Positions 55,553-61,107 of a DNA stretch of 64,000 nucleotides are shown piece by piece (position 1 is the first letter of the stretch; each line of letters opens with the position of its first letter). Source of the DNA: Caldovatus aquaticus (GTDB lineage: Bacteria; Pseudomonadota; Alphaproteobacteria; Acetobacterales; Acetobacteraceae); NCBI RefSeq assembly GCF_019458025.1, contig NZ_JAHZUY010000004.1:62001-126000 (forward strand), read 5' to 3'. The position numbers and the translations under genes were made by a program. The notes under the pieces are model-generated. The model saw only the letters and a list, made by a program, of their open reading frames with translations, was not told the DNA's origin and searched no databases.

Positions 55553-56251
55553 ATGGAAATGACCGGCGAGCGGCGCATTCCCGCGCCGCGTCAGCGCGTC
55601 TGGGAGGCGCTGAACGACCCCGAGGTGCTGCGCGCCTCCATCCCCGGCTGCGAAACGATCGAGAAGACGGGCGATGACTCCTTCGCCGCCCGCGTGGCGG
55701 TGAAGATCGGACCCATGGCGGCGAAGTTCACCGGCAAGGTGCGCCTCGAGAACCTCGACCCGCCCAATTCGTACACCATCGTCGGCGAGGGCCAGGGCGG
55801 CGCCATGGGCTTCGCCAAGGGCAGCGCCGACGTCAGCCTGCGCGAGCTCGGTCCGTCCGAGACCCTGCTGAGCTACGCCGTGAAGGCCCAGGTCGGCGGC
55901 AAGATGGCCCAGCTCGGCGCCCGCCTGATCGATTCGACCGCCAAGCAGATGGCGGACCAGTTCTTCGACCGTTTCGCCCGGCAGCTCACCCCGGCGGAAG
56001 CGGTGGTGGTCGCGGCGGCCCCGGCGGAGGCGATGGCCGTCGCGGCCGCGGCGCCCCCCGGGCCGCTCCCCCCGCCCGCCGCGCCGCCGGCGGCCGGCCC
56101 CGCGCCGGGCCCGCTCCCGCCCGCCGAGCCCTTCGACCTCAGGCCGCTGCGCCTGTTCTTCGCCATGGAGCCCTTCGGGCTGCCGATGCAGTTCTGGATC
56201 GGCGCCGTGCTGATGCTGATCATCCTGATCCTGCTGTTCGTGGTGGGGTGA
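55553..56251 (+). CDS. coxG: CoxG-like carbon monoxide dehydrogenase accessory protein (SRPBCC fold, tail-anchored)
   Basis: This 232-aa protein starts MEMTGERRIPAPRQRVWEALNDPEVLRASIPGCE, the usual CoxG opening. It has a START-like SRPBCC domain (about 1-150), a Pro/Ala linker (about 150-205) and a C-terminal transmembrane segment (FWIGAVLMLIILILLFVVG). CoxG helps recruit CO dehydrogenase to the membrane in Oligotropha. ATG 55553 is favoured by GGAG six bases upstream; ATG 55541 is also in frame. It opens a six-gene operon. Confidence 0.88.
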   Translation: MEMTGERRIPAPRQRVWEALNDPEVLRASIPGCETIEKTGDDSFAARVAVKIGPMAAKFTGKVRLENLDPPNSYTIVGEGQGGAMGFAKGSADVSLRELGPSETLLSYAVKAQVGGKMAQLGARLIDSTAKQMADQFFDRFARQLTPAEAVVVAAAPAEAMAVAAAAPPGPLPPPAAPPAAGPAPGPLPPAEPFDLRPLRLFFAMEPFGLPMQFWIGAVLMLIILILLFVVG

Positions 56252-56254
56252 GCC

Positions 56255-58721: not shown

Positions 58722-59455
58722 CGCCGGAGATCCTTGCGCGCCTGCTCGCCGACCGCGCCGCCGGCCGGCCGGTCGCGCTGCTGACGCGCCTCACCGACGG
58801 GCAGCAGTGCCTTTGGCCCGACGACGCCTGCCCGGGCGCGCTGGCCGAGGCGGCCGCCGCGGCGCTGCGCGACGACCAGGCGCGCACCGTCACCCTCGAC
58901 GGCGAGCCCTGGTTCGTCCACCCGCACAACCCGCCGCTCCGCCTCGTCGTCGTCGGCGCCGTGCACATCGCCCAGGCGCTGGTGCCGATGGCGGCCCGCC
59001 TCGGCTTCGCCGTCACCGTCGTGGACCCGCGCCGCGCCTTCGCCACCGAGGAGCGGTTCGCCGGCGTCACCCTCCGCACCGACTGGCCCGACGAGGCGCT
59101 GGACGCGCTGCGCCCCGATGCGCGCACCGCCGTCGTCACCCTCACCCACGACCCGAAGCTCGACGACCCGGCGCTGGACCGCGCGCTGAAAAGCCCGGCC
59201 TTCTACATCGGCGCGCTCGGCAGCCGGCGCACCCACGCCAAGCGCATCGCGCGGCTGAAGGAAATGGGCTTCGACGACGCCGCCCTCGCGCGCATCCACG
59301 CCCCCGTCGGCCTCGACATCGCGGCGGTGACGGCGCCCGAGATCGCGCTCTCGATCCTCGCCGAGATCGTCGCCGTGCGCCGTGGCGCCCCGCTCGCCGC
59401 GCGCCGGGACGGGACGCCGCAGGGCGCCGCCGCCTCCGCCCCTGCCGCCGCATGA
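58718..59455 (+). CDS. XdhC Rossmann-domain protein (split XdhC, second half)
   Basis: This 245-aa protein has a short N-terminal region and an XdhC C-terminal Rossmann fold: RLVVVGAVHIAQALVPMAARLGFAVTVVDPRRAF, AVVTLTHDPKLDDPAL, YIGALGSRRTHAKR and the closing PVGLDIAAVTAPEIALSILAEIV. Together with the preceding gene it equals a full XdhC/CoxI chaperone. The start is GTG 58718. The C-terminal 25 residues are Ala-rich. Confidence 0.9.
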   Translation: MTPEILARLLADRAAGRPVALLTRLTDGQQCLWPDDACPGALAEAAAAALRDDQARTVTLDGEPWFVHPHNPPLRLVVVGAVHIAQALVPMAARLGFAVTVVDPRRAFATEERFAGVTLRTDWPDEALDALRPDARTAVVTLTHDPKLDDPALDRALKSPAFYIGALGSRRTHAKRIARLKEMGFDDAALARIHAPVGLDIAAVTAPEIALSILAEIVAVRRGAPLAARRDGTPQGAAASAPAAA

Positions 59456-61107
59456 TCTTCGGCCCTGTCCCGCTCGAGGAGGCGCGCGGCGCCATCCTCG
59501 CCCACACGATCCGGCTGCCCGGCGGCCAGGTGATCAAGAAGGGCACGGTGCTCGACGAGGGCGCGCTCGCGGCGCTGCGCGAGGCCGGGCGCCGCGAGGT
59601 GACCGTCGCCCGCCTCGAGGCCGGCGACGTGCCGGAGGACGAGGCCGCCGACCGCATCGCCGAGGCGCTGCGCGCCCCGCTGATCGCCCGCTCGCGCGCC
59701 GCGACCGGCCGCGTCAACCTGTTCGCCGAGACCGCCGGGCTGCTCGTCCTCGATGCCGCGAAGATCAACCGCATCAACGCGGTGGACGAGGCGATCACCG
59801 TCGCCACCCTGCCGCCCTACGCGGTGGTCGAGCCGCGGGAGATGATCGCCACCATCAAGATCATCCCCTTCGCCGTCGCCACCCCCGTGCTCCAGGTCGC
59901 CGAGGCGATCGCGCGCGCCGGCGCGCCGGCGCTGCAGGTGAAGCCCTTCCGCCCGCTCCAGGTCGGCCTCGTCCTGACCGAGCTTCCCGGCCTCAAGGAA
60001 AGCGTCCTGGAGGGCACGGTGGAGGCGACGCGTGCCCGGGTGGAGGCGCTGCGCGGCACGCTGCTGCCCGTCGAGCGCTGCCGCCACGAGGAGGCCGCCG
60101 TCGCCGAGGCGCTGAACCGCCTGCGGCGCGCCGGGGCCGAGCTGCTGCTGATCGCCGGCGCCTCCGCCGTGGTGGACCGGCGCGACGTCGGGCCGGCCGC
60201 GATCGTGCGGGCCGGCGGCACGATCGAGCACTTCGGCATGCCGGTGGACCCCGGCAACCTGATCTGCACCGGGCGCATCGGCGACATCCCGGCCTTCGTC
60301 CTGCCGGGCTGCGCCCGCAGCCCGAAGCTCAACGGCTTCGACTGGGTGCTGCAGCGCACCTTCGCCGGCATCCCGGTGACCTCGCGCGACATCATGGCGA
60401 TGGGCGTGGGCGGGCTGCTCAAGGAGATCGAGAGCCGTCCGCTGCCGCGCGAGCAGGCGCCGAAGACACCGCCGCCCGCCACCGCGCCGCGCCGCCCGCG
60501 CAAGGTCGCCGCGGTGGTGCTCGCCGCCGGCCGCTCGCGCCGCATGGCGCCGCTCAACAAGCTGCTCGTCACCGACGAGCACGGCGTGCCGATGATCGCC
60601 CGCGTGGTGGACAACGTCCTCGCCTCCCGCGCCCGGCCGGTCATCGTCGTCACCGGGCACGAGCGCGAGCGGATCGAGGAGACGTTGACCGGCCGCCCGG
60701 TGCTGTTCGCCCACGCCGAGGACTACGCCGAGGGCCTCTCCGCCAGCCTCAAGGCCGGGCTGCGCGCCCTGCCGCCGGACGCGGAGGGCGTGCTGATCTG
60801 CCTCGGCGACATGCCGCTGGTCACCGGCGCCATGATGGACCGGCTGCTCGCCGCCTTCGACCCCGAAGAGGGGCGCGCCATCGTCATGCCGACCTTCCGC
60901 GGCAAGCAGGGCAACCCGATGCTCTGGAGTCGCGAATTCGTGCCGGAGATGCTCGCCATCACGGGCGATGTCGGCGCCCGCCACCTGGTCGGCAAGTACC
61001 GGGACCGGCTGGTCGAGGTGGAGATGGCCTCGGACGCCGTGCTGCGCGACTTCGACACGACCGAGGCGCTGAAGACCGCGCCCGGCCACGCCGCGCCGGC
61101 CCGCTGA
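59452..61107 (+). CDS. MoeA-like molybdopterin-binding domain fused to MobA/MocA-type nucleotidyltransferase
   Basis: This 551-aa fusion has residues 1 to about 335 as a MoeA/MogA-like molybdopterin-binding region (VPLEEARGAILAHTIRLPGG, LLIAGASAVVDRRDVGPAAIV). Residues from about 350 are an NTP-transferase domain (VAAVVLAAGRSRRMAPLNKLLV, LICLGDMPLVTGAMMDRL). The second domain resembles MocA, which makes molybdopterin cytosine dinucleotide, the cofactor form of CO dehydrogenase and relatives. The fusion suggests channelling from molybdate insertion to nucleotide attachment. ATG 59452 overlaps the upstream stop (ATGA). Confidence 0.88.
   Translation: MIFGPVPLEEARGAILAHTIRLPGGQVIKKGTVLDEGALAALREAGRREVTVARLEAGDVPEDEAADRIAEALRAPLIARSRAATGRVNLFAETAGLLVLDAAKINRINAVDEAITVATLPPYAVVEPREMIATIKIIPFAVATPVLQVAEAIARAGAPALQVKPFRPLQVGLVLTELPGLKESVLEGTVEATRARVEALRGTLLPVERCRHEEAAVAEALNRLRRAGAELLLIAGASAVVDRRDVGPAAIVRAGGTIEHFGMPVDPGNLICTGRIGDIPAFVLPGCARSPKLNGFDWVLQRTFAGIPVTSRDIMAMGVGGLLKEIESRPLPREQAPKTPPPATAPRRPRKVAAVVLAAGRSRRMAPLNKLLVTDEHGVPMIARVVDNVLASRARPVIVVTGHERERIEETLTGRPVLFAHAEDYAEGLSASLKAGLRALPPDAEGVLICLGDMPLVTGAMMDRLLAAFDPEEGRAIVMPTFRGKQGNPMLWSREFVPEMLAITGDVGARHLVGKYRDRLVEVEMASDAVLRDFDTTEALKTAPGHAAPAR

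Follow-up and report, generated by a model that had tools for sequence, protein, structure and literature searches.

In Oligotropha carboxidovorans, the carbon monoxide (CO) dehydrogenase genes are organized in the cluster coxBCMSLDEFGHIK. In this organism coxE and coxF are needed for CO utilization, coxD mutants are impaired and coxG is dispensable; CoxD, CoxE and CoxF modify the active site once the enzyme has folded, whereas CoxG probably assists its recruitment to the membrane (PMC4240915; statements on published systems, here and below, refer to excerpts of the papers cited). We analyzed an operon of related content in Caldovatus aquaticus, located in a stretch of 64,000 nucleotides (contig NZ_JAHZUY010000004.1, positions 62,001 to 126,000), hereafter called the window. 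As in CoxDEFG-type clusters, a MoxR-type AAA+ ATPase and a CoxE protein with a VWA domain are encoded together, and an XdhC-family protein is part of the cluster, but is encoded by two genes, so that the XdhC_CoxI and XdhC_C domains of this chaperone family are found on two adjacent proteins. The subunit genes coxMSL are not in the same cluster. The operon is very likely the single kit of this genome for the maturation and membrane coupling of hydroxylases with a molybdopterin cytosine dinucleotide (MCD) cofactor, acting in trans and with large subunits carrying an AYRGAG active-site loop ("form II" type) as its main clients.

Several elements of such a kit have been studied separately. CoxG has been described as quinone-binding (PMC13240472, citing other work), and CoxG homologues anchor another dehydrogenase, where a part in electron transfer was argued against (PMC11962113). 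Co-expression of an XdhC from a separate gene cluster raised the activity of a urolithin C dehydroxylase (PMC12771579), and the sharing of one XdhC by several enzymes was called speculative in a review from 2010 (PMC2997495). The function of form II CO dehydrogenases has been called unresolved, uncertain or unclear (PMC13240472; PMC7645674; PMC2864759), and CO may not be their physiological substrate (PMC6794299); to the contrary, Bradyrhizobium japonicum USDA 110, which has only form II, was cited as able to grow on CO (PMC2864759).

One XdhC and Eleven Large Subunits in the Genome

A search of the genome (3.99 Mb in 142 contigs, 98.76% complete) with PF02738 gave 12 matches, representing 11 genes for large subunits (L); for other genomes PF02738 counts are given as matches, not genes. 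Five genes for small subunits (S; PF01799) and three for medium subunits (M; PF00941) were found. PF02625 and PF13478, the two domain models of XdhC, each had a single match, both in the operon, and a second XdhC elsewhere in the genome was therefore rejected. As the only XdhC found stands against 11 L encoded elsewhere, the kit must act in trans. The original prediction, made from the window alone, had proposed that the kit serves an enzyme encoded elsewhere, possibly several, and the genome-wide counts support this, with 11 L, 5 S and 3 M genes outside the operon providing candidate MCD-type hydroxylases. Its statement that no L, M or S genes flank the operon also held: both neighbors are transporter genes on the opposite strand, and the sole large-subunit match on the same contig (C85:3455-4195) is about 113 kb away.

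The L genes differ in their neighborhoods. One is part of an S-L-M triad (contig C118), two belong to M-S-L sets (C51, C22) and two form pairs of S with a permuted L that are IorAB-like by make-up (C62, C22). The remaining six are solitary (C85, C51, C11, C108, C63, C96): the stretches of 17-20 kb that contain them have neither S nor M, although the genes on C85 and C108 are close to a contig end (2.3 and 3.3 kb, respectively) and an S in the gap is possible. All 5 S and 3 M of the genome belong to the other sets. The three large-subunit Pfam domains are complete in all six solitary L, and one of these, compared with solved structures, best matched the large chain of CO dehydrogenase (8uem_A, residues 36-800, 2.5e-157).

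Alignment of the nine standard L over the active-site loop showed AYRGAGR in five of them, AYRGAGK in the one on C11 and other sequences in three. The solitary L on C11 (locus L020, 8154-10733, minus strand) also has Gln (GVKGCGQ) instead of the expected catalytic Glu; this sets it apart from the eight other aligned L, and its chemistry is possibly altered. The form I loop ([AS]YxCS[FL]R, AYXCSFR-type) was absent from all 11 L, and form I CO dehydrogenase was rejected as a client; as the genome has no form I CoxL, a copper-loading role is not expected. The question whether the client is a true CO dehydrogenase or a relative, which the original prediction regarded as undecidable, is thereby narrowed: no AYRCSFR loop was seen (0/11), and form II-type loops are present. 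The C118 triad, outside the window's operon, has both the S-L-M order and the AYRGAGR loop of (putative) form II CO dehydrogenases.

The ratio of nonsynonymous to synonymous substitution rates (dN/dS), determined between two genomes of the genus, was 0.10-0.25 for the seven segments of the kit and 0.17-0.22 for four L (the triad L with 0.17 and three solitary L with 0.17, 0.18 and 0.22), indicating purifying selection on kit and large subunits. With complete domains in addition, it is disfavored that the solitary L are pseudogenes.

Kits Without Adjacent Hydroxylase Genes Prevail in the Family

The survey comprised 100 genomes of 99 genera, own genome included, from the Acetobacteraceae in a broad sense, as judged from the named best matches (Roseomonas, Crenalkalicoccus, Neoroseomonas, Belnapia, Rhodovarius). 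Eighty-five genomes have an XdhC, always together with L matches and never alone; eight genomes had L matches without XdhC and seven had neither. Stretches around 80 of the 110 XdhC matches, mainly the best-scoring ones, were retrieved, several of them cut by contig ends. All seven kit segments (CoxG, CoxD, CoxE, both XdhC halves and both halves of the fusion protein) were present on 43 of the 80. CoxE and the N-terminal XdhC domain occurred together on 59 stretches, and L, M and S were absent from 57 of these; the exceptions were L071, with an L, and L060 and L071, with S or M. Locus L268 (L-S-M-D-E), which has no N-terminal XdhC domain on the stretch, was left out of these counts. A kit lacking hydroxylase genes is thus ordinary for the family. 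This goes beyond the original prediction: the stand-alone kit is a family rule, and most of its likely clients lack a dedicated S or M gene.

The presence of a kit-type CoxE (best E-value below 1e-55, a cut-off chosen after the scores were seen) was compared with that of the AYRGAG loop, using a DNA pattern that requires CGN for the first arginine and misses AYRGAGK. Sixty genomes had both, one had CoxE only, eight had the pattern only and 31 had neither; among XdhC-bearing genomes these numbers were 60, 1, 1 and 23. Fisher's test, which ignores shared ancestry, gave P-values such as 2.6e-17, and a backwards control pattern matched in 2 of the 100 genomes. Exactly one XdhC match was found in 46 of the 61 genomes with kit-type CoxE, in which the median number of L matches was 11. 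PF02738 matches outnumbered those of PF01799 in 59 of the 61, were equal in genome G076 and fewer in G041. Pattern-bearing genomes together had 758 PF02738 and 431 PF01799 matches, versus 63 and 62 in pattern-free genomes with L. The number of L alone does not explain the coincidence of CoxE and AYRGAG, as G076 has a single L match, with the pattern, and a kit-type CoxE, whereas pattern-free genomes with 3-4 L matches have none.

Large Subunits Without S and M, and S and M Without a Large Subunit

To count solitary and triad L in relatives, 18 of the 68 pattern-bearing genomes were chosen for their listed places and mostly long contigs, and 59 of 60 AYRGAG places were fetched (one of two in G096). 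Seventeen were S-L-M triads, and the other 42 lacked both S and M on the stretch fetched; with five from the own genome, this gives 47 AYRGAG L of the latter kind. At least one triad was found in sixteen genomes (two in G051) and none in G038. In a tree of 74 large subunits (quick method, with the Shimodaira-Hasegawa-like approximate likelihood ratio test as only support), 18 triad L including that of C118 formed one group, which also held an L of G038 (locus L198). The L on C85, C108 and C96 were placed in three different clades, each with support and made up of solitary L of several genera.

Genome G076 (100% complete, 2% contamination, about 180 contigs) is a minimal natural set of one L, S, M and kit. 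Its only PF02738 match, on contig C71, belongs to a solitary clade and not to the triad clade. Its only PF01799 match, on C41, lies beside an M about 9 kb from the coxG of the kit, with no L between; as this sole match is of the triad type, a pairing of the solitary L with an IorA-type S was rejected. In G038 (locus L060, 4.5-11.7 kb), S and M are located inside the kit between coxG and coxD (G-S-M-D-E-...), again without L. G038 has eight L matches and two PF01799 matches, the second of which is beside an M-S-L-kind L (locus L205), leaving seven L without an S of their own. The kit-linked S of G076 and G038 grouped among triad S (support 97/92 in one tree and 91/88 in another); the broader group that adds kit-linked S from other families was less well supported (93/66).

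Outside the family, named genomes were scanned by CoxE alignment, and the best 80 loci of at least 589 relatives were taken together with three plasmid loci. CoxE and the N-terminal XdhC domain were present on 81 of the 83 stretches. Seven of the 81 carry an L: on six an S-L-M triad is in line with the kit on the same strand (Azospirillum sp. B510, L274, L275, L277, L280 and L289, Oceanibaculum and Pelagibius being among them), and on one (L220) the L is on the opposite strand. In Azospirillum sp. B510, coxD-coxE-xdhC-xdhC-fusion directly follow S-L-M, which ties the kit to the S-L-M triad type. S and M without L were found on six stretches (Bradyrhizobium sp. Ai1a-2, B. archetypum, L276, L278, L282 and L283); on L278 an L further upstream is possible, as only 0.4 kb upstream of coxG was available. 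In Bradyrhizobium sp. Ai1a-2, M starts about 50 bases after S, where S-L-M triads have the L. Two stretches (L284, L288) have an S only, which the tree places with IorA-type S; these were rejected as kit-type S and not used as support. The remaining 66 have no L, M or S.

The solitary L type was also checked on plasmids (5 of 112 records). The L is solitary in the Azospirillum thermophilum plasmid record and part of an S-L-M triad in those of Azospirillum sp. B510 and Pseudosulfitobacter; in Pseudohalocynthiibacter it has S and M 2 kb away on the other strand, and in Neorhizobium it is beside CoxG-S-M plus a further L. On the Neorhizobium petrolearium plasmid (L294, 1-14198), an L and a transporter binding protein precede CoxG-S-M, modABC follows some kb downstream, and the second L adjoins a gene for a UbiD-family decarboxylase.

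Proposed Role and Alternative Explanations

Based on characterized relatives, the fusion protein would attach cytidine monophosphate (CMP) to molybdopterin to form MCD, and the two-part XdhC would bind, protect and insert the sulfurated cofactor. CoxD and CoxE may remodel the folded apoenzyme for sulfuration, and CoxG would tether or quinone-couple the finished enzyme at the membrane. Candidate clients are several solitary L and the AYRGAG L of the S-L-M triad, which is on a different contig; for the M-S-L and IorAB-like types, the shared functions may include at least XdhC and the synthesis of MCD.

Enzymes of the xanthine oxidase family are commonly regarded as L-M-S complexes of fixed composition, each having its own XdhC, and one XdhC/CoxDE kit facing 11 L offers a clean test case for chaperone sharing. 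The genomes of relatives suggest that many lone catalytic subunits depend on one kit operon and on the same pair of subunits for electron transfer. We consider it fairly probable that the system is modular, with a shared chassis (CoxG, CoxD, CoxE, XdhC, the MocA-like fusion, one 2Fe-2S S and one FAD M) and interchangeable solitary L, which would borrow S and M from the triad. If so, the coxSLM of a "form II CO dehydrogenase" would be the chassis with one of its L rather than one enzyme, which would help to explain the unsettled activity of form II. Should the solitary L rely on a common S-M pair, the annotation of the many proteins now called "xanthine dehydrogenase family molybdopterin-binding subunits" would need rethinking, as would the form II CO dehydrogenase puzzle. 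Among the titles listed, from a library with few subscription journals, none dealt with solitary large subunits, shared S and M or interchangeable subunits.

Several observations weigh against a general kit for AYRGAG-type large subunits. Because the family genomes are related, the P-values overstate independence, and the CoxE of G085 (5.5e-52) just misses the cut-off. Eight genomes (G004, G019, G026, G034, G039, G052, G089 and G098) have the AYRGAG pattern without a kit-type CoxE, and seven of these have no XdhC at all despite 8-25 L matches; all eight are drafts (130-1240 contigs, 82-97% complete), in which the kit may have been lost in assembly. One of them is G019, a 3.3 Mb draft in about 510 contigs with 25 L and 23 S matches and no XdhC or CoxE match. 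G040 is 100% complete and has one L match but no XdhC, so that XdhC may not be indispensable for every member, and in G053 a CoxE adjoins an M-S-L set without an AYRGAG match. The plasmid records show mixed solitary and triad settings, including a Pseudosulfitobacter plasmid with an S-L-M triad without an adjacent kit.

The most serious alternative is that solitary L are served by the kit but use no S or M, or pass their electrons to another carrier. The 47 AYRGAG L without S or M on the stretch fetched fit this explanation. However, the six solitary L of the own genome keep all three L domains, one of them most resembles the large chain of a CO dehydrogenase, and triad-type S-M pairs without an adjacent L occur at the six outside loci and in G038 and G076. 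Keeping such pairs makes little sense unless an L encoded elsewhere uses them, and we regard this alternative as possible but not likely.

A second alternative is that the kit serves only the one S-L-M triad, from which it has moved away, and that the other hydroxylases mature without it. The six loci where S-L-M and kit share a stretch and strand favor this, as do G040, with its L but no XdhC, and E. coli, where xdhABC and xdhD are not co-transcribed with an XdhC homologue (PMC2997495). The single XdhC for 11 L in the own genome argues against it, and G076 retains kit, S and M while its only L is of a solitary clade. A kit confined to the triad is therefore improbable.

It is very improbable that the kit has lost its function and is merely left over from a former CO dehydrogenase operon: adjacent coxMSL and a form I L are indeed missing, but the kit is complete with intact frames, is under purifying selection and is conserved as a stand-alone block in the family. 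Misassembly, with hydroxylase genes belonging beside the kit, might be considered for a draft of 142 contigs but is hardly credible, as the kit is embedded in a contig of 145.7 kb, where intact transporter genes flank it on either side, and L, M and S are likewise absent from 57 of the 59 family kit stretches, several of which are cut by contig ends.

Organization of the Operon

The operon spans positions 55541-61107 of the window on the plus strand (G000:C85:117541-123107), in a region (52001-64000) with a G+C content of 74-76%. All six genes of the originally predicted chain (coxG, coxD, coxE, a split XdhC and a MoeA/MobA fusion) were confirmed by Pfam matches and by their junctions (Table 1). 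coxG and coxD are separated by a 3-base gap and the other four junctions are 4-base overlaps (ATGA for coxD/coxE, coxE/xdhC-N and xdhC-C/fusion; GTGA for xdhC-N/xdhC-C), which argues for a single transcript with translational coupling. The start codon of coxG is at 55541 or 55553.

Table 1. Genes of the operon and its flanks, in the order in which they occur in the window.
Gene	Product	Positions	Strand	Evidence
Flanking gene	CitMHS_2 transporter	53734-55146	-	Pfam
coxG	SRPBCC/CoxG-domain protein with hydrophobic C-terminal helix	55541-56251	+	PF06240 (COXG), 3.7e-37; helix read from sequence
coxD	MoxR-type AAA+ ATPase (CoxD/MoxR-like), Walker A GEPGTGKTE	56255-57154	+	AAA_5, 7.8e-11; motif read from sequence
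coxE	VWA-domain protein, metal ion-dependent adhesion site (MIDAS) DISGSM	57154-58395	+	VWA_CoxE (PF05762), 4.9e-75
xdhC-N	XdhC_CoxI domain alone, 109 aa	58392-58721	+	PF02625, 3.8e-28
xdhC-C	XdhC Rossmann domain alone, 245 aa, GTG start	58718-59455	+	XdhC_C (PF13478), 4.4e-45
fusion	MoCF-like N-terminal half and MocA-like nucleotidyltransferase C-terminal half	59452-61107	+	NTP_transf_3 (PF12804), 8.1e-37
Flanking gene	Major facilitator superfamily (MFS) transporter	61145-62365	-	Pfam

The split of XdhC is common among relatives. At the 77 loci where both halves were scored, they are in different frames in 63, in one frame but separate open segments in one, and in a single open frame in 13; CoxE is present on the stretch in none of these 13. 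A frameshift artefact was rejected as the cause of the split, because different frames prevail in relatives and both halves are under purifying selection (dN/dS of 0.10 for xdhC-N and 0.25 for xdhC-C, against the genome of the same genus).

In the fusion protein of the window, the N-terminal half has no Pfam domain and gave no match in a search of solved structures. MoCF_biosynth (PF00994) was matched in 18 of 32 aligned members of the fusion (with E-values up to 1 listed, the best being 5e-8), which makes the label MoeA-like/MobA-like fusion fair. The best NCBIfam model is MocA (TIGR03310), with 145.4 bits below its cut-off of 186.45, so that the protein is better called MocA-like than a member of MocA.

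CoxG matched a solved CoxG structure (8uds_D, 1.3e-11). The genome encodes one strong CoxG (129 bits) and one weak match (22.6 bits; cut-off 22.2) at L027 7601-8275 (G000:C58), where the next gene by eye resembles a thiamine-diphosphate-type enzyme. Two more VWA_CoxE-type matches are located at G000:C142:24007-24648 (148.5 bits) and G000:C63:152123-152389 (37.3 bits).

Comparison With Known Systems

Like coxDEFG of O. carboxidovorans, the operon combines an AAA+ CoxD, a VWA CoxE, an XdhC-type protein (CoxF in that organism) and CoxG in one cluster. It differs in that coxMSL are not adjacent, XdhC is split into two genes and a MoCF/MocA-like fusion is appended. The blocks on Sinorhizobium meliloti pSymB and Paroceanicella profunda pD4M1A share the coxD-coxE-xdhC-fusion core without L, M or S on 19 kb. 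Neither has CoxG on the stretch, and in that of P. profunda (L209, 7565-12797) XdhC is unsplit and coxD is separated from coxE by a DUF4260 gene.

An XdhC that is not tied to one enzyme and is proposed to act for several has precedents in E. coli YqeB and in the single xdhC with mocA on pAO1 (PMC2997495). Here, in contrast, XdhC is encoded with CoxD, CoxE and CoxG, is the only one found in the genome and could be set against the client counts of 100 genomes.

The C118 triad shares the S-L-M order and the AYRGAGR loop with the form II coxSLM of Cupriavidus metallidurans (PMC2864759) and Aminobacter carboxidus (PMC7645674), and the coxSLM-coxDEGI genes of C. metallidurans include helpers of the coxD, coxE and coxG type (PMC2864759). 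In C. metallidurans these helpers follow the triad, whereas here they form a separate operon, and most of the AYRGAG large subunits examined are without S or M.

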